A stretch of 64,000 nucleotides of DNA from Halobiforma lacisalsi AJ5 (GCF_000226975.2 NZ_CP019285.1:1054001-1118000); one strand, 5' to 3'. Positions 34,792 to 64,000 are shown, counted from the stretch's first letter. The notes: generated from the letters alone by a model not told the origin. Numbers and translations are program-made.

Positions 34792-35637
34792 CTACGCCAC
34801 GGCTGTGGCGACGGTCCAGGCGACGTCGACGACCTCGGCCAGCGTCGACGGTTCGGCCTGGACCTCCTCGATACCGTACTCGATGGCGAGATAGAGGACG
34901 CCGAACTGGAAGGCGTTGAGCACCGCGTGGGCGGCCGTCGGGACGAGGAGGTTGTCAGTCTTCGCGTAGACGTAGCCGAAGATGAGCGCGCCGCCGAACA
35001 TCACCGTCAGCGACGCGAGCGTCGAGAGGAGGGAGTCGGCGAAGGCGACGTACATGGGGAAGTGGACGAGTGCGAAGATGACGCTCGCCACGACGACCGC
35101 CTGCATTCGGGTAAACGCCGCGTACAGCCGCTTCTGTATCACGTTCCGGAAGAGGAACTCCTCGGCCGGCGCGTTGAACAGGAAGACGATAGCGATCATG
35201 ATCAGGATCATCGTCTGGTCTCCACCGATGATCTCCATTATCTGGCTGTCCGCGGCCGACACCTCGAGCAGGGTGGAGACGATGTTGAACGCGAACAGGA
35301 AGAGGAGACTGCCGACGCCGCCGGCGACGATGTACTTCCAGTCGCGCCGGGACGGGATCCGCAGGTCGATCCACGCCACCCCGCGACCGGTCGCCAGCAG
35401 GTAGAGCAGGCCGGCCAGGAACATTCCGACGAAGTTCAGGATCAGCGCGAGGGTCCGGCCCGCGATCGAGCCGTTCCCGAGCCCCTCGAGCAGGGCGGGA
35501 TCGAACAGGAACGCCGGCGTCGTCAAGACGTTGGCCATGAGGAGTCCGAACACGGTCAGACCGATGCCGACGAGCGTCGCCCGTACCGGCCCGTCGTCGC
35601 GCTGGTAGGAGGACGTCGACGTCGAGGGGGTTTCCAT
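34792..35637 (-). CDS. CPBP family intramembrane metalloprotease
   Basis: This second CPBP protein of the window has 281 residues. Motifs are AEEFLFRNVIQK, FALVHFPMYV and HAVLNAFQFG within about eight helices. Start ATG 35637 removes a hydrophilic Pro/Thr-rich in-frame extension. It lies 59 bases upstream of hjc on the same strand, but a functional link is unlikely. Sequence similarity to the protein at 32182 is limited to the motifs. The substrate is unknown. Confidence 0.85.
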   Translation of the reverse strand: METPSTSTSSYQRDDGPVRATLVGIGLTVFGLLMANVLTTPAFLFDPALLEGLGNGSIAGRTLALILNFVGMFLAGLLYLLATGRGVAWIDLRIPSRRDWKYIVAGGVGSLLFLFAFNIVSTLLEVSAADSQIMEIIGGDQTMILIMIAIVFLFNAPAEEFLFRNVIQKRLYAAFTRMQAVVVASVIFALVHFPMYVAFADSLLSTLASLTVMFGGALIFGYVYAKTDNLLVPTAAHAVLNAFQFGVLYLAIEYGIEEVQAEPSTLAEVVDVAWTVATAVA

Positions 35638-35749
35638 GCACGTCCCTACGGGAACTGGCCTTTTGGGCGTTCCTGTGTCGGGCGACGGGGCCGGCTCCGT
35701 AGCGGATCGTCCGTCACGCTCGTCAACACCCGCGGGCGGCGAGACCTCG

Positions 35750-38700
35750 CTACTCGCCGACCGCGACCGTACCGTCTTCAAACAGCTGTCGTAACAGGCG
35801 TTGCTGGCCGATCCGGAGGTGGCGGTTGACCGTCGGCTGGCTCACCCCCAGCGCCTCGGCGACCTCCTGGCCGGTACTCTCCCGGGGCCACTCGAAGAAC
35901 CCCGCGAAGTAGGCCGTCCGGAGTACCTCGAGCTGGCGATCGGTCAAGGCGTCGAACAGCGAGGTAACGAGTTCCCGGCGGGTCTGGAGCGCGCGTTCGA
36001 CGTGGCGACGACGCCGGAGTTCGGCGTCGCCGGTGTGGTCGGCGAGCGTCTCGACGAACTCGCGGACGTCGGTGCCGGCGGGGACGTCGACGGTGACGAC
36101 CGTTTCGTCGCCGTCGGCCAGGATCGACCGGGGGCTGCCGCCGTGGCGGACCAGCCGCGAGGCGATGACGGGGCCGGTGACGAGCGCTTCGAAGCGGCAG
36201 CGGTTCGCGTCGGGGTCGCTTTCGTCCCGGTCTTCACCACCGTCCTCGTCGCCGTTCCCGTCGCCGTCGTCACCTCCGGTGCTGAGCAGTCGATACTCCG
36301 ACACCGATACGAGGTCCTCGAGGACCGCGGCGACCGCGTCGGGGTCTGCACCGCGGGTCTCGAAGAACAGCAGCGCCTCCTCGCCGGAGTCAGAGTGGGT
36401 GCCGAGCCCCTCGTACTCGACCCGCGCGTCCGTCAGCGACGCGATCCGGGAGAGGACGTCGGTCGCGTCCGTCATCTCGAGGGTGAGTTCGACGACCGTC
36501 TCGGCGTGCAGCGCCTCGCGGGTCTTCGTCGCCGTGATCGCGTTCGCGATGGCCTCGCCGAGTTCGGCGAATACCGTCCGCTCGAGGTCGGTGAACGCGT
36601 CCGGCTCGGTCGCGTACACCGTCAGTACGCCGTAGGAGTAGTCCTCGACGGCCAGCGGGACGCCGATGACCGACTGGAACCCGGCCTCGAGGGCGCGCTT
36701 GCGCCAGGATTCGCGCTGGAGGTCTTCGACGACGTTCTCGACGACGGTCGTCCCCTCGCTGCTGGCGGTTCTGACGGCCGGGGGGATCGATCCGTCCCCG
36801 TCCCCGTCGCCGGCCCCCGCCGCATCGAGCGAAACGAGATCGAGGTACTCCTCGCCGTCGCCGGCCCACCCACGGGGTTCGAGGGACTCGCCGTCCGGCC
36901 CCGGCCGGCCGATCCAGGCGAACGCGACCTCCTCGACCGCGACCAGTTGTTCGGGGACGGTGCGTTCGATCTCGGCCCGGCTCGTCGCGCCGATCAGCGA
37001 CTGGTTGATCCGCCTGATGGTCTCGTTGATCGTGATCTGACGTCGCAGCCGACGGTTGCGCGCCTCGAGTTCCGCGTCGCGTTCCCGCAGGTTGGCCTCG
37101 CTCTCGAGGCGGTCGAGCGCGGCTTCGGTCGTCGCGCCCAGGGTCTCGATCAGCCGCCGGGCCTCGACGTCGATCGGCTCTCCGTCGGAGGCGACCGCGA
37201 ACACGCCGTGGTCGCCGATGGGGACGACGACGGCGGTCTCGACGCCCGTCTCGAAGGCCTCGGAGCGGTCGAACGCGGCCGCGTCGTCGACGACGGTCTG
37301 TGCACCCGTGACGAATGCGTTCCAGAGGACCGAATCGCCGTTCCCGACGGCGGCCGACGGATCGTCGCTCGAGAGCCGGCCATACGCCTCGGTGTGTGCG
37401 ATCGGGACGAGCCGGTTGACGTCGGGGTCGAGCCCGTAGAGGGCGACCCCCGACGCGTCGAGCAGGTCGTCGGTGGCCTCGACGACCAGCTCCGCGACGT
37501 CCTCGACCGTCTCCGTGCCGAGCAGGCCTCTGGCCACCTCGTGGAGCGACTCGAGGGCGAGTTCCCGTTCCTTCCGGTCGGTGATGTCCTGGAGCGCGCC
37601 CTGATACTTGACGAGTTCGCCGTCCTCGAAGATCGGCGCGCCGAATCCGCGGACCCACCTGATCTCGCCCGGCTCCGGCTGTAGCCGCGCCTCGAGGTCG
37701 TAGATCGTCTCGCTTTCGATGGCCGACTCGAGGGCTTCGCGGACCTTCGGCCGGTCGTCCGGGTGGTACTGGTCGATCGCTTCCCACAGGTCGGGTTCGT
37801 CCTCGCGGGGCATGCCGTGGAGCCGGAACAGCTCGTCCGTCCAGGTCGGCGTCCGCGGATCGGTCCGCATGTCGAGTTCCCAGCCGCCGATGTCGGCCAG
37901 CTTCTGGATCCGCTCGAGGAAGGCCCGGGTACGCTCTAAGTCGTGTTCGCGTTCCTTCTGGGCGGTGATGTCCTGGATGGACCCGCGAACGGCGTCGACG
38001 TCTCCCTTCACGACGCCCCCGTCGTGATCGTCGGATCGGCTCCGCGCCGCAGTTCCACGATCGCAGTCGGCGATCGGCTCCCCGATCGTCCGCACCCATC
38101 GCTGTTCGCCGTCGGCCCGGATCAACCGCAGTTCGAGGTCGTACGGCTCGCCGTCTTCGATCGCCCGTTCGATCGCGTCCTCGAGTTGCGGTCGGTCCTC
38201 CGGGTGGTAGTAGTCGAGCAGGCCCTCGAACCCGCGCTCGAGGTCGGCGACGGTCCCGGGCGGGAGCCCGTGGATCCGTGCCGTCTCCTCGGTCCACGTC
38301 ACCTCGTGTTCGTCCTCCCGAACGTCGAGTTCCCAGCCGCCCACGCCAGCGATCCGCTGGGCCTGCTCGAGCAGTCCGCGGGTCCGCTCGAGCGCCCGTT
38401 CGTTCTCGACCTGCTCGGTGATGTCGACGATCGCGCCCTCGAGGTGGGCGAGTTGGCCGTCCTCGTCGAACACGCCCCGCCCCTGTTCGCTCAGCCACCG
38501 GCGCTCGCCGTCCGCGGTCTCGATCCGGTACGTCACCCGGTACGGTTCCCGGTTCTCGAGCGCACGCTGGACGTCGTCCCAGAGATCGTCCCGGTTCTCG
38601 ACCAGGACGTCCCGTCCCCAGTTGACGTCGCCTTCGACCAGTTCCGCGGGCTCGTAGCCGGTGATCTCCTCGGCACCACCGCTGACGAACTCGAACGGCC

Positions 38701-40138
38701 AGTCGGGCTCGTTTCGACACCGATAGACCATCCCGGGGACGTTGTCCATCAGCGTCGACAGTTCCTGCTCCCGCTCGCGAAGCTCGCGGTCGCGGCGCTT
38801 GCGCTCGGTGACGTCCTCCTGGAACCCGACGAAGTGGGTGACAGCCCCGTCCTCGTCCTCGAGCGGGGTGACCGTCACCCGGTTCCAGAACGGCGTCCCG
38901 TCCGCCCGATAGTTGCGAAGTTCGACGGTCGTCTGCTCCGCGGCCTCGACGGCCTCGCGTAGTTCGCCGATCCGCTCGGGATCGGTCTCCTCACCCTGGA
39001 GGAACCGGCAGTTTCGCCCGAGGTACTCCGCCGGCGAGTACCCCGTTAGCCGCTCGAACTCCTCGTTGGCGTAGACGATGGGATTGTCCGGCTCGTCGGG
39101 GTCCGTGATCGTGACACCGATCGGGGCGTACTCGAGCGTCCGGGTCTTGAGCCGAAGCTCTCGCACGTACTCCCGGCGCTCGAGGACGTGGCTCAACCGC
39201 CGCCGAACGCGGTCGACGAACGTTCGTTCGATCCCGGTAAACGGCGCTTCGCGTGGCTCGCGATCGACGAAACAGACCGTCCCGTAGGGTTCCCCGTCGA
39301 CGTCGATCCGCCCGCCGGCCGCCCACTCTACTCCTCGGTCGTCCCAGGCTCCGCAGATAGGGTGGGCCCCGTCGGTGACCTCGAGTTCGGCCCCGGTACC
39401 GTCGGTGAATTCGACGGTCCCGCCGGTGCAGTCGCCGGGTTCGCCGCCGTGTTCCCGTTCGATCGGCGCGTGTGCGCCCTCGGGAACGACCTCGCTCCCC
39501 TCCGCGATCAGCACCTCGTAGCGGCCCCGGTCGGGATCCCGTCGCACGACGAACCCTGCCTCGACGCCCAGCCGTTCGCGACCGACCTCGAGGAGCCGCC
39601 GGATCGTCTCTTCGGGCTCGAGGTCGGCATCGGACGCGATCCGGTCGAGCGCCTCCCCGGAGCGTTCGTTCGCGGCCAGTTGCTCGACCCGTTCGTCGAG
39701 GACGGCCGCGAGGTCGTCGACCGCCGCCGACAGCTCGCCGAGTTCGTCGTCCCGCTCGAGTTCGGCGTCGACCGCCGGAAACCGCCGCTCCGCGTCCGCG
39801 ACGCTCTCGGCGTCCTCGAGCGCGTCGGAGACCGTTCTGACGTCGTCAGTGAGGCGCTCGAGGGGGCCGAATCGATCGCTGCCGCCGGCGGCGAGCCCGA
39901 GCACCGCCGGGAGCGCTGGAAACGGGAGGGCCGGACCGATCGCGACGAACCGGTGGAGGTCGACGGCCGGCGTCGACTCGAGGCCCCCGACGACCGCGAC
40001 CGCCGCGAGGGCGACAGTCGCCGCGAGCCACCACCAGTCCCGGCCGAACCGACCGGGTCTCGCGGATCGCGCGGATCGGTCGTTACGGAGCCGCGATCCG
40101 GGACCGATCGCGAGGTGCGGGGTCGAACCGTGGCACAT
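35750..40138 (-). CDS. Bat-type transcription activator with LOV, PAS and GAF sensors
   Basis: The 1462-residue protein begins with one or two short hydrophobic stretches (about 33-85). It continues with GAF (about 165-320), a LOV-type PAS (330-445), three further PAS/PAC domains (about 460-860), two GAF domains (about 865-1205), a Bat linker and a C-terminal HTH-10 domain (LTDRQLEVLRTAYFAGFFEW and VAEALGVSQPTVNRHLR). The LOV domain has the photoactive-Cys motif GRNCRFLQ with C377, LRNYRADGTPFWN (N409, N419) and Q440 in GFQEDV, the full flavin-binding set. Bat proteins control the bacterio-opsin regulon; this one should be a blue-light and multi-signal activator. Start ATG 40138 fits the TATA box. 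Confidence 0.9.
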   Translation of the reverse strand: MCHGSTPHLAIGPGSRLRNDRSARSARPGRFGRDWWWLAATVALAAVAVVGGLESTPAVDLHRFVAIGPALPFPALPAVLGLAAGGSDRFGPLERLTDDVRTVSDALEDAESVADAERRFPAVDAELERDDELGELSAAVDDLAAVLDERVEQLAANERSGEALDRIASDADLEPEETIRRLLEVGRERLGVEAGFVVRRDPDRGRYEVLIAEGSEVVPEGAHAPIEREHGGEPGDCTGGTVEFTDGTGAELEVTDGAHPICGAWDDRGVEWAAGGRIDVDGEPYGTVCFVDREPREAPFTGIERTFVDRVRRRLSHVLERREYVRELRLKTRTLEYAPIGVTITDPDEPDNPIVYANEEFERLTGYSPAEYLGRNCRFLQGEETDPERIGELREAVEAAEQTTVELRNYRADGTPFWNRVTVTPLEDEDGAVTHFVGFQEDVTERKRRDRELREREQELSTLMDNVPGMVYRCRNEPDWPFEFVSGGAEEITGYEPAELVEGDVNWGRDVLVENRDDLWDDVQRALENREPYRVTYRIETADGERRWLSEQGRGVFDEDGQLAHLEGAIVDITEQVENERALERTRGLLEQAQRIAGVGGWELDVREDEHEVTWTEETARIHGLPPGTVADLERGFEGLLDYYHPEDRPQLEDAIERAIEDGEPYDLELRLIRADGEQRWVRTIGEPIADCDRGTAARSRSDDHDGGVVKGDVDAVRGSIQDITAQKEREHDLERTRAFLERIQKLADIGGWELDMRTDPRTPTWTDELFRLHGMPREDEPDLWEAIDQYHPDDRPKVREALESAIESETIYDLEARLQPEPGEIRWVRGFGAPIFEDGELVKYQGALQDITDRKERELALESLHEVARGLLGTETVEDVAELVVEATDDLLDASGVALYGLDPDVNRLVPIAHTEAYGRLSSDDPSAAVGNGDSVLWNAFVTGAQTVVDDAAAFDRSEAFETGVETAVVVPIGDHGVFAVASDGEPIDVEARRLIETLGATTEAALDRLESEANLRERDAELEARNRRLRRQITINETIRRINQSLIGATSRAEIERTVPEQLVAVEEVAFAWIGRPGPDGESLEPRGWAGDGEEYLDLVSLDAAGAGDGDGDGSIPPAVRTASSEGTTVVENVVEDLQRESWRKRALEAGFQSVIGVPLAVEDYSYGVLTVYATEPDAFTDLERTVFAELGEAIANAITATKTREALHAETVVELTLEMTDATDVLSRIASLTDARVEYEGLGTHSDSGEEALLFFETRGADPDAVAAVLEDLVSVSEYRLLSTGGDDGDGNGDEDGGEDRDESDPDANRCRFEALVTGPVIASRLVRHGGSPRSILADGDETVVTVDVPAGTDVREFVETLADHTGDAELRRRRHVERALQTRRELVTSLFDALTDRQLEVLRTAYFAGFFEWPRESTGQEVAEALGVSQPTVNRHLRIGQQRLLRQLFEDGTVAVGE

Positions 40139-40162
40139 ACCCGCAATACACAGTGTCAGCGA

Positions 40163-40168
40163 TTATAT
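40163..40168 (-). promoter_or_regulatory. TATA box of the LOV-Bat gene
   Basis: ATATAA on the minus strand is centred 27-28 nt before ATG 40138, giving a leaderless message and confirming the start. Confidence 0.65.
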
Positions 40169-40355
40169 GTTGGGTGCGTTCTCGACCGCCGGACCGACCG
40201 CAACCGGTATCCAGCGGCAGGAATGCTCGCTCGCCGTCGTGCACTCGACGTCGTTTGGACCGGGTCCGGGGCTATACATGTAGCGTCCGCCGGCCGACGA
40301 CCGAACGCATATAGTAAACAGGGAAATGCCCCTTCCTCGCCTTCGGTGGAGTAAG

Positions 40356-40613
40356 ATGGTAGAATCCGCTCTGGACCACCACAACGATTCGCCCAGTCTC
40401 CGCGTCATCGACGCGCTCGCATCCACGACCGGTACCGACCCGCTCGAACTCGATCCGCTGTACGAGGTAGTCGACCCCGAGGCACTCGACCAGCTATTCC
40501 GGGACGAGTCGGACGCGTTCGCCGCCGTCTCCTTCGAGTACGAGGGACATTCGGTCGAAGTTCGGGGGGACGGTACCATCTCGGTCGACGGAACCGTCCA
40601 TGAGCCGGTGTAA
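40356..40613 (+). CDS. HalOD1 output domain protein
   Basis: The 85-residue stand-alone HalOD1 protein contains SLRVIDALASTTGTDPLELD, PLYEVVDPEALDQLF and SFEYEGHSVEVRGDGTISV. HalOD1 is a haloarchaeal output module often found with response regulators or near Bat-like genes; its biochemical function is unknown. It is divergent from the LOV-Bat gene, with a CATATAG TATA candidate near 40311-40317. GGAG upstream of ATG 40356 supports the start over the in-frame ATG at 40326. Confidence 0.78.
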   Translation: MVESALDHHNDSPSLRVIDALASTTGTDPLELDPLYEVVDPEALDQLFRDESDAFAAVSFEYEGHSVEVRGDGTISVDGTVHEPV

Positions 40614-40673: not shown

Positions 40674-41516
40674 ATGGCATCACCGTCGATAACCGGCACG
40701 TTCCGCGATCAACGCGTTGCTTCGGAATCCCTCGAGGTGCTCGCCCTCGGTACCGAGGCGTTCGTCGAGTCGATCGAGCCGCTCGAGGTACACTGGACGC
40801 GCGATCCAGACTCCGAGGACGGCCCCGGCCCCGACCCCGACCCCGACCGCGACCGCGAGGAGCGAGTCCGACTACGAACCACGCCCTCGCTTTCGGCTGC
40901 CGAGTCCATCGACGGCGTCGACTGTCTCGTCTGTCAGTACCCGCTCGCGTCCGCCGAGCCGACGGCCGTCCTCGAGCGAGCGCGCCGTCTCGGGACGCTC
41001 CCGGTGCTGTTCGTGACGACGGAGCCGGGTCGGAGCCCCGAGTTACGGGACGTGGCGAGCGAGTACCGGTGGGCGGCCGTCGTCGTCGCAGCCGATCCGA
41101 GTCGACTCCGTGACCGCCTGTCCCACCGACTCCCCCGGCTCGTCGAGCGGCGGCGGCTCTCGGCGCTCTCACACCGGTCGGTCTCGGGCCTCGAACTGGC
41201 CGGCGACGCGATCGCGATCGTCGCCCCGGACGGGACGATCGAGTTCGCGAACCGCGCGTTTACCGTCCAGCTCGGCGCCGATCGGGACGCGCTCGTCGGC
41301 CGTCCGTGGCAGGACCTGTTCGCCCCGACGGCGGTCGACCGCCTCGAGGAGACCGCGATCCCAACCGTCGAGGACGGCTGGCGCTGGAGCGGGACGGCGA
41401 CCGGACGACGACCTGACGGTGCCGACTTCGAGGCGACGGTTCGTATCGACGGCCTCGAGGACGGCACGCTCGTGTTCGCCGTGGATGCGCTCGAGCAAGG
41501 AGAAACGAAAGAATAA
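40674..41516 (+). CDS. PAS domain signalling protein
   Basis: The 280-residue protein has an N-terminal region resembling a receiver fold (VDCLVCQYPLA, LPVLFVTTEPG and the RWAAVVVAAD strand) without the usual phospho-acceptor Asp context. A PAS domain from about 170 (GDAIAIVAPDGTIEFANRAF, LVGRPWQDLF) follows. There is no kinase or HTH domain, so it likely passes signals to a partner. It follows the HalOD1 gene after 60 bases on the same strand. A pseudo-receiver plus PAS protein is common in haloarchaea. Confidence 0.75.
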   Translation: MASPSITGTFRDQRVASESLEVLALGTEAFVESIEPLEVHWTRDPDSEDGPGPDPDPDRDREERVRLRTTPSLSAAESIDGVDCLVCQYPLASAEPTAVLERARRLGTLPVLFVTTEPGRSPELRDVASEYRWAAVVVAADPSRLRDRLSHRLPRLVERRRLSALSHRSVSGLELAGDAIAIVAPDGTIEFANRAFTVQLGADRDALVGRPWQDLFAPTAVDRLEETAIPTVEDGWRWSGTATGRRPDGADFEATVRIDGLEDGTLVFAVDALEQGETKE

Positions 41517-61934: not shown

Positions 61935-62645
61935 TCAGGCCGGCTGTTCGGCGCCGGCTTCGATCCCCGTCGTCTCGTACTCGGCCTCGATGACCGTACT
62001 CGCGTTGAGCGCGATCAGGCCGAACCCGACCTTCGTCAGGAGGTCGAGGTAGGTGATCAGCATTACGTCCACGCCGGGGGTGAGCAGCGCGAACCCGGCG
62101 GGGCTGAGCAGCCAGATGACCGGATACACCGACCAGAGGATGATCGTGAGGTTCCGCAGGCTGGTAAACAGCGACTCGATGCCGTCGTCCTGCCCGGCGG
62201 CCTGTGCCGTCATCGGGCCGACGACGAGGTAGACGAGCCCCACGTACGCGAGGCCACCGACAGCAAAGAGCGCGAACCGCTCGGTGCCCGAGAGGACGGC
62301 TCCCGCGAAGCCCGCGACCATCACGACGGTGTTGACGCCGACGACCTTGAGGAGGGTATCCCGGTCGGCATCCGCGAGCAATCCGAGGAATGCGAGCAAC
62401 AGCGGCGTCGTGAGGATCCAGTCGATGTACCGGGGAATGAACACCTCGCGGCCGTCGACCGTGTACCAGCCGATCTCGAGGGCCATCACCGCGTACGCGA
62501 CGGTCGCGATCAGGCTGATCGCCGCCAGAGTAGCGTAGTATCGCACGTACCCCTCGTCGGCCGAGAGGCCGCCCCAGACGAACGCCACCGTGCCGACGAA
62601 CATGCCGAGGGCACCGATCGCGAACCAGACCGGGAGGTCGATCAT
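61935..62645 (-). CDS. sop2: Sensory rhodopsin II (phototaxis receptor)
   Basis: This 236-residue seven-helix retinal protein has R72, D75 (counter-ion) and W76 in [14 protein letters not shown]86 where the pump has an Asp proton donor, N105, Y174 and the retinal lysine K205 in [12 protein letters not shown]. These fall on the same numbers as in Natronomonas pharaonis SRII, and T204 needed for signalling is present. It senses blue-green light and signals through HtrII, with which it overlaps by four bases. The start is ATG 62645. Confidence 0.95.
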
Positions 62646-64000
62646 GCGGCATCACCCGCGATGGTCCGCGCGGTTCGATCGTCCGTTCCGTTCCGCGAGA
62701 CCGTCGCGTCCTGCAGAATCTCGAGCAGGGCGTCGGACTCGTCGGCGAGGTCGTCGACCCGTTCGAAGACGTCCCGGACGGATTCGGCCTGCGTCTCGGC
62801 CGTGTTCGCGACGCTGTCGGCTTCCGCTGCCGTCTCCTCCGACACTGCGGCGACGTCGTCGATCATGTCCACGACCTGCTGGGCCGACCGTGCCTGCGTG
62901 TCCGTCGACTCGTTGATCTCCTGGATGCCGTCGTTCGCCTCCTCGACGGCCTCGACGATCCGCTCGAGGGAGTCGACGGTTTCCTCGACGGTGTCGACGC
63001 CCCGCGAGATCCGGTCGCTGGTCGTCCGGATGTCCTCGACGGTCTCCTGGGACTGCTCCTGGATGCGCCCGATCAGGTCGTCGATCTCGTCGGTCGCCTC
63101 TTTCGTCTCCTCTGCCAGGGACTTCACCTCGCTCGCGACGACCGCGAACCCGTCGCCGTCGGCGTTCGCGTGGGCCGCCTCGATCGAGGCGTTCAGCGCG
63201 AGCAGGTTCGTCTGCTCGGCGATGTCGGCGATCAGTTCGGTGATCTCGCCGATCTCCTGGGTCTCCTCGTAGAGCGCCTCGATGGCCTCGACGGCCTCCT
63301 CGGTCTGGGCCTCGACCTCGTTCATCTCGGTGATGGCCTTCTCGGCGGTCTCGCGGCCCTTCTCGCCGGCGCTTGCGGCCTCCTGGGAGGTCTCGGCGAC
63401 GCCGGTCGCGCTCGCGGCCATCTGTTCGGTCGTCGCCGAGATGTCGTCCATCTCGCGGGCGATCTCCTGGATGTTCTCCGTCTGGCGGTTCGCGCCGTTG
63501 GAGATCTCCTGGATCGTCCGATTGACGTCGTCGCTCGCGTCCATCACGTGCTCGGCATTCGCTCGCACCTCCTGGCTACTCTCGGAGACGTTCTCCGCGA
63601 AGCCGTCGATCCGGCCCACCAGGTCCTCGATGCCGTCCATCATCTCGTTGAACGACTCCGCGATCGCCACCATCGCGTCGTTGTCGCTGCGGGCCTCGAG
63701 TCGCTGCGTGAAGTCGCCGTCGGCGCAGTCGGCCATCACGCCGCTGAACCGCTCGGCCTCCCGCTCCAGTTCGGTGTTGATTTCCTCGAGGCGTTCGCGC
63801 TCGCGTTCGACCTCCTCGCGGGCTTCCTCGGCGCGCTCGCGCTCGGTCTCGGCCTCCTCGAGGGCCTCCTCGGCGCGTTCGCGTTCCCGCTCGGCGGTTT
63901 CGATCGACTCGCGCAGCGAGTCGCGCATCTCGGCGAAGGAGTCATAGAGGTCGCCGATCTCGTCGTTACGGCGGGTCTCGAGGTCGACGTCGAGTTCCTC
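62642..64000 (-). CDS. htrII: Phototaxis transducer HtrII, C-terminal part
   Basis: The gene is open at the right edge; at least 452 residues are visible. It starts in the second HAMP region ([18 protein letters not shown]), then a coiled coil, a HAMP-like segment ([18 protein letters not shown]) and the methyl-accepting signalling domain with tip [20 protein letters not shown]. It is followed by sop2 with an ATGA overlap, so I assign it as the SRII transducer that controls CheA. The two transmembrane helices that bind SRII lie outside. Confidence 0.92.

Follow-up and report, generated by a model that had tools for sequence, protein, structure and literature searches.

The 64,000-nucleotide stretch of Halobiforma lacisalsi AJ5 analysed here (GCF_000226975.2 NZ_CP019285.1:1054001-1118000, referred to as the window) carries a gene for a 1462-residue regulator at 35750-40138 on the minus strand. 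On sequence and structural models, we consider it fairly likely that this protein is a one-component, multi-sensor Bat regulator that combines a canonical LOV domain of the flavin-Cys type with a predicted membrane tether and has a nearby palindrome as its DNA target. Light-controlled transcription by the regulator is plausible but unproven.

A Bat-family regulator with a canonical LOV domain

The open reading frame (ORF) encodes, in order, a predicted transmembrane hairpin, a HAMP-like segment, and GAF, LOV, three PAS, two GAF, BAT and HTH_10 domains. The main features of the coding region are the following (AF2, AlphaFold2).

35750-40138, minus strand: LOV-Bat regulator gene (ORF call; Pfam; Met aligned in orthologues; conserved TATA)
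35789-36502, minus strand: BAT domain and HTH_10, residues 1213-1450 (Pfam)
38789-39151, minus strand: LOV domain, residues 330-450, with C377, N409, N419 and Q440 (sequence, AF2, fold match)
39200-39616, minus strand: GAF1, residues about 175-313 (Pfam GAF just below cut-off; AF2 helix and strand pattern)
39644-39880, minus strand: HAMP-like segment, residues about 87-165 (alignment; Pfam HAMP in orthologues; AF2 helices)
39881-40039, minus strand: predicted membrane anchor, residues about 34-86, with TM1 at 34-53 and a weaker TM2 at 66-86 (hydropathy; orthologues)

The BAT domain (residues 1213-1390) scored 127.1 bits against a Pfam cut-off of 26 and HTH_10 (residues 1398-1449) 63.7 bits against 23. 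With both above the curated cut-offs, the regulator is by sequence a member of the Bat family, one of 55 host genes with HTH_10 above cut-off. The initial annotation had proposed that the chain ends in HTH-10, so that a single protein could carry the light signal to transcription, and these scores agree with it. Its count of three GAF domains and three PAS domains besides LOV was also right: the Pfam scan of the whole chain found four PAS-fold stretches, LOV among them, and three GAF stretches, GAF1 being weak, with 20.3 bits in a separate scan (cut-off 22.4). The same scan found no REC domain at the N-terminus, where the predicted transmembrane segment and the HAMP-like stretch stand instead. 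Judged by an N-terminal REC and linkage to bop, the regulator does not appear to be an orthologue of Halobacterium Bat.

The LOV domain was complete, as the initial annotation claimed. We confirmed C377, N409, N419 and Q440 by residue index in the full chain, with a reactive-Cys motif of the type GxNCRFLQ, and the regulator is therefore not a member of the Cys-less BAT-LOV* class, in which the Cys is replaced by, for example, Pro. Other canonical pocket residues are T345, N352, N376, R378, Q381 and R394, positions assigned by mapping to oat phototropin LOV2. Against PDB sequences the best match of the segment was PAL (6hmj, E 4.1e-36), followed by YtvA and phototropin LOVs. The AF2 model of the domain had a predicted local distance difference test (pLDDT) score of 95, and a Foldseek search of PDB with this model (E 3e-15) returned LOV proteins without exception among the top 50 matches, the fold neighbours including 9vf7 (TM-score 0.97) and 1n9l (root-mean-square deviation 0.8). 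By sequence and modelled fold this is a canonical photoreceptor-type domain, and flavin binding, a photocycle and LOV photochemistry in the regulator are likely. The flavin is probably flavin mononucleotide (FMN), because no insertion follows the Cys motif. In the AF2 model helices flank the domain on both sides, at residues 302-337 ahead of it and 444-465 behind.

Predicted membrane anchor

From the N-terminal sequence we predict that the regulator is tethered to the membrane via a hydrophobic hairpin and a HAMP-like linker. The two hydrophobic stretches have hydropathies of 1.83 and 1.77. Nearly all syntenic orthologues that are not truncated likewise have a hydrophobic segment at the N-terminus, with hydropathies up to 2.8. 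The alignment showed a layout common to the orthologues, with the transmembrane segment followed by LERLTDDVR and then by RDDELGELSAAVDDL. Pfam HAMP scored 32.0 and 25.7 in orthologues (26.7 and 28.9 with full chains) against a cut-off of 25, and the AF2 model of residues 1-470 placed helices at 92-109 and 130-169 in the HAMP-like segment. A real anchor would make this an archaeal transcription regulator tethered to the membrane; no such protein, and no membrane-anchored Bat or HTH_10 regulator, turned up in the literature searched, which omitted most subscription journals.

Promoter and candidate operator

Two conserved elements lie upstream of the regulator, whose start Met is aligned in orthologues.

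40161-40169, minus strand: TATA element of the LOV-Bat gene, CATATAATC (kept in the seven orthologues aligned)
40268-40287, no strand: candidate operator, palindrome GGGGCTATACATGTAGCGTC, family consensus GACACTATACACGTAGTGTC (conserved intergenic site)

The TATA element, conserved in 7/7 orthologues aligned, is located 23-31 nt 5′ of the start codon, a distance that implies a leaderless transcript. The palindrome lies between the regulator and a divergent HalOD1 gene. Its consensus across the BAT/HalOD1 intergenic regions is GACACTA-TACACG-TAGTGTC, and it was found in 34 of the 51 distinct syntenic regions, as compared with 1% of mononucleotide shuffles. An activator site would be expected where it lies, immediately 5′ of the HalOD1 TATA element. 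The palindrome core, CTATACAYGTAG, has a single exact (no-mismatch) occurrence in the 4.38-Mb host genome, and 37 of its 42 exact matches in 125 genomes of the family fall at the BAT/HalOD1 locus, as counted by comparing the coordinates of matches and loci.

The initial annotation had suggested a regulon of the bop or carotenoid type. None of the flanking genes tested was a rhodopsin or carotenoid gene, and we found no palindrome-like site of comparable quality in the four rhodopsin regions scanned in the host genome; the only conserved operator candidate is local. Since the core is unique in the genome and almost confined to the locus, a local target is favoured and the suggested regulon is left without support. 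As a direct target, the palindrome in the regulator's own divergent promoter is the likeliest, and we infer that the regulator itself binds this single site.

Conserved locus and partner genes

The syntenic order is AHCY, pseudo-REC-PAS, HalOD1, BAT, CPBP and Hjc. In Natrialbaceae the regulator is flanked on one side by the divergent HalOD1 and receiver-like/PAS pair, with AHCY beyond, and on the other by CPBP-Hjc.

40326-40613, plus strand, true start possibly 40356: divergent stand-alone HalOD1 gene (Pfam HalOD1, 90.6 bits)
40674-41516, plus strand: receiver-like and PAS protein (Pfam PAS; receiver part judged by eye)
34792-35781, minus strand, likely start 35637: downstream gene for a CPBP/Rce1-like intramembrane protease (Pfam Rce1-like, 67.2 bits)

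HalOD1 is divergent from BAT within 600 nt in 61/70 loci (duplicates included). The HalOD1/PAS side is retained both in Halosimplex and in one genome from a different family, whereas CPBP is not and is conserved as a neighbour within Natrialbaceae only. The receiver-like/PAS product has its homologue in the N-terminal portion of soluble LOV-Bat proteins; in G022, G073, G081, G097 and G109, for example, the partner match and the LOV match are adjacent in frames of equal length. This fusion in soluble paralogues argues for a functional link. By eye, the receiver-like part apparently misses its phospho-acceptor Asp. We rejected the overlap of BAT and CPBP as evidence of coupling, as it needs a TTG start; if translation begins at the internal ATG (35637), the two genes are about 110 nt apart.

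Distribution of the LOV domain

LOV was found in the same frame in 12 of the 60 distinct C-terminal rows of the syntenic family. Loss of the Cys in close orthologues, named beforehand in the initial annotation as the result that would speak against a light receptor, did not appear: each of the 16 LOVs examined from membrane-type Bats has the reactive Cys, which is lost in places in soluble LOV paralogues. On the tree of BAT C-termini, the presence and absence of LOV require at least six changes, which rules out a single insertion in the host genus. The LOVs of membrane-type Bats cluster (3 changes vs 13.8 in shuffles) and are compatible with a single clade (approximately unbiased test, p-AU 0.49); with a smaller LOV set they form one clade with support 87/69. 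The simplest reading is an old origin of LOV in membrane-type Bats and repeated loss thereafter, although LOV may instead have been transferred among orthologues.

Two variants of the motif were also seen. A membrane LOV-Bat of another family (L206:7053-12557) has GRDCRFLQ, with Asp for the Asn preceding the reactive Cys, and two other genomes of the host genus encode Pro-for-Cys LOV-HTH_10 proteins of the BAT-LOV* type (L072 and L073).

Proposed mechanism and alternative explanations

In the mechanism that we propose, blue light would produce an adduct between C377 and the flavin, probably FMN, and the adduct would change the helices flanking LOV. The chain would integrate this signal with those from its GAF and PAS domains and pass it to the C-terminal BAT-HTH_10, which would act at the local divergent promoter and control HalOD1, the receiver-like/PAS gene and perhaps the regulator's own gene. 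The membrane location and the direction of the light effect are parts of the scheme that we infer. In a wider formulation, which is possible but rather doubtful, Bat regulators tethered to the membrane would be an ancient family of the haloarchaea, some of them with a LOV for blue light; they would work at the membrane on essentially a single site, the dedicated palindromic operator beside their own gene, together with a split-off receiver-like/PAS partner and HalOD1, and would have lost the light sensor repeatedly.

Several observations weigh against the proposed mechanism. The palindrome is degenerate in L142, L144, L145 and L085, and some relatives with LOV have it in degenerate form or not at all; the link between regulator and palindrome is therefore not absolute, and another protein could bind the site. 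LOV is absent from most orthologues at the locus. The nearest orthologue (L074:10001-14443, Halobiforma haloterrestris), 90% identical to the regulator, carries His in place of the active-site Gln of LOV (Q440H). The Q-to-H replacement removed light-dependent signalling in YF1, NmPAL and AsLOV2, whereas replacement by leucine did not (PMC9098866), and light signalling may therefore differ between the two close species. At the N-terminus, the regulator's own Pfam HAMP score of 16.0 is under the cut-off, AF2 models residues 1-94 with low confidence (pLDDT <50 over most of them), and the first 92 codons differ from L074 by 12 nonsynonymous and 3 synonymous changes, so the ratio of nonsynonymous to synonymous rates (dN/dS) is not low.

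The loss of the domain from most syntenic orthologues, Q440H in the sister species and the two Pro-type LOVs within the genus would all fit a LOV kept as a flavin redox or oxygen sensor, or as a structural PAS; the GAF and PAS inputs would then dominate, and the reaction to light would be incidental. Flavin binding and a response to flavin reduction are indeed known from a Cys-less haloarchaeal BAT-LOV (PMC4682037). We consider this unlikely, as the Cys has been retained in every membrane-type LOV examined, yet lost in places in soluble paralogues, and as the dN/dS between the regulator and L074 (0.37 for LOV, 0.08 for HTH_10) indicates purifying selection on LOV. Likewise, the low AF2 confidence, the weak second hydrophobic stretch and the lack of clear purifying selection over the N-terminal codons could mean that the N-terminus is over-predicted and that this is a cytoplasmic LOV-Bat of the Losi 2014 type with no membrane tether. 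Given a hydrophobic segment in nearly all orthologues, followed by a HAMP above the Pfam cut-off in several, and given the conserved Met and TATA, such a protein seems quite unlikely.

A membrane-anchored regulator would need freeing or looping to reach DNA, and a co-directional CPBP gene lies directly downstream in Natrialbaceae loci with or without LOV, so light-triggered cleavage of the anchor by this neighbouring protease could be imagined. It is very unlikely in our judgement: no CPBP gene stands beside the regulator in Halosimplex and another family (L085, L087, L206, L208, L209). Activation of bacteriorhodopsin or carotenoid genes, as by Halobacterium Bat, would agree with membership of the Bat family and with the several rhodopsin genes of the genome. 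We nevertheless give it hardly any credence, because the regulator is not adjacent to bop, is just one among many HTH_10 genes and begins with a predicted transmembrane and HAMP-like segment unlike the REC of Bat, and because the four rhodopsin regions scanned yielded no candidate operator.

Comparison with known systems

In the bacterial LOV-HTH protein EL222 the light sensor and the DNA-binding domain are in one chain, and CadC and ToxR are membrane-bound one-component regulators whose DNA-binding domain is tethered to the membrane. These are work-alikes only, as their HTH and architecture are not homologous to those of the regulator, whose sensors are cytoplasmic. The LOV-Bat architecture itself is already known in haloarchaea, and as a bare finding the regulator is an ordinary member. 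In the parts consulted, the survey of Losi 2014 (PMC4844311) reports 167 archaeal LOV proteins, with about 30% of the halobacterial ones fused to HTH, and describes the Halobacteria-only scheme (RR/GAF/PAS)+LOV+nPAS (0-8)+kGAF (0-2)+HTH. The regulator, with GAF-LOV-3 PAS-2 GAF-HTH_10 and the reactive Cys, follows this scheme. Those parts of the survey do not mention a membrane anchor, HAMP, conserved locus or operator, features that are predicted or conserved for the regulator. What appears to be new relative to known LOV-HTH proteins is the predicted anchor and the one conserved candidate DNA site adjoining the regulator's own gene. The initial annotation mentioned neither of these, nor the HAMP-like segment, the frequency of LOV-HTH proteins among haloarchaea or the Q440H change of the sister species.

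Halobacterium salinarum Bat resembles the regulator in ending with BAT and HTH_10 and in having PAS and GAF domains as inputs. It differs in having a diverged N-terminal REC (PMC5847659) in place of the predicted transmembrane and HAMP-like segment and a PAS without Cys (PMC4844311) instead of a Cys-bearing LOV; it also activates bacteriorhodopsin production, whereas the regulator shows no link to bop. Like the regulator, BAT-LOV* of Halorubrum hochstenium is a Bat protein that combines HTH with a LOV fold (PMC4682037), but it has Pro for Cys and carries REC; in the host genus the Pro type is a separate paralogue. ALovD-1 of Halonotius, a canonical haloarchaeal LOV like that of the regulator, photocycles in 3 M salt (PMC12202551); it comes from a histidine kinase and not from a DNA-binding protein.

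Haloarchaeal LOV-HTH proteins have been catalogued, yet no in vivo function or DNA target was reported in the literature searched. The conserved site, the partner pair and the natural variants with LOV present, absent or carrying Q-to-H make archaeal blue-light control of transcription directly testable, and the regulator and L074 form a natural test case for light signalling.

Other light-related genes

LOV-like matches are abundant, occurring at E <= 1e-30 in 345/391 genomes of the haloarchaeal class and at E <= 1e-25 in 117/125 genomes of the family. A second LOV-BAT-HTH_10 gene of the host genome (L058:7779-9728) encodes 650 residues with GRNCRLLQ and no transmembrane segment. The initial annotation also placed an SRII-HtrII pair in the window. 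The SRII gene at 61935-62645 is genuine (E 1e-78 to NpSRII), but the adjacent HtrII-like transducer frame (62645-64357, 571 residues, two N-terminal transmembrane segments) extends past the window end at 64000. The pair lies about 22 kb from the regulator, SRII being its nearest rhodopsin, and nothing ties the two together; bop-like genes are located elsewhere in the genome. Among the host's rhodopsin genes, two identical 660-bp cores lie 1.9 kb apart (G000:C1:1533851-1534510 and 1535751-1536410; L051 and L052), and represent either a recent tandem duplication or an assembly artefact.

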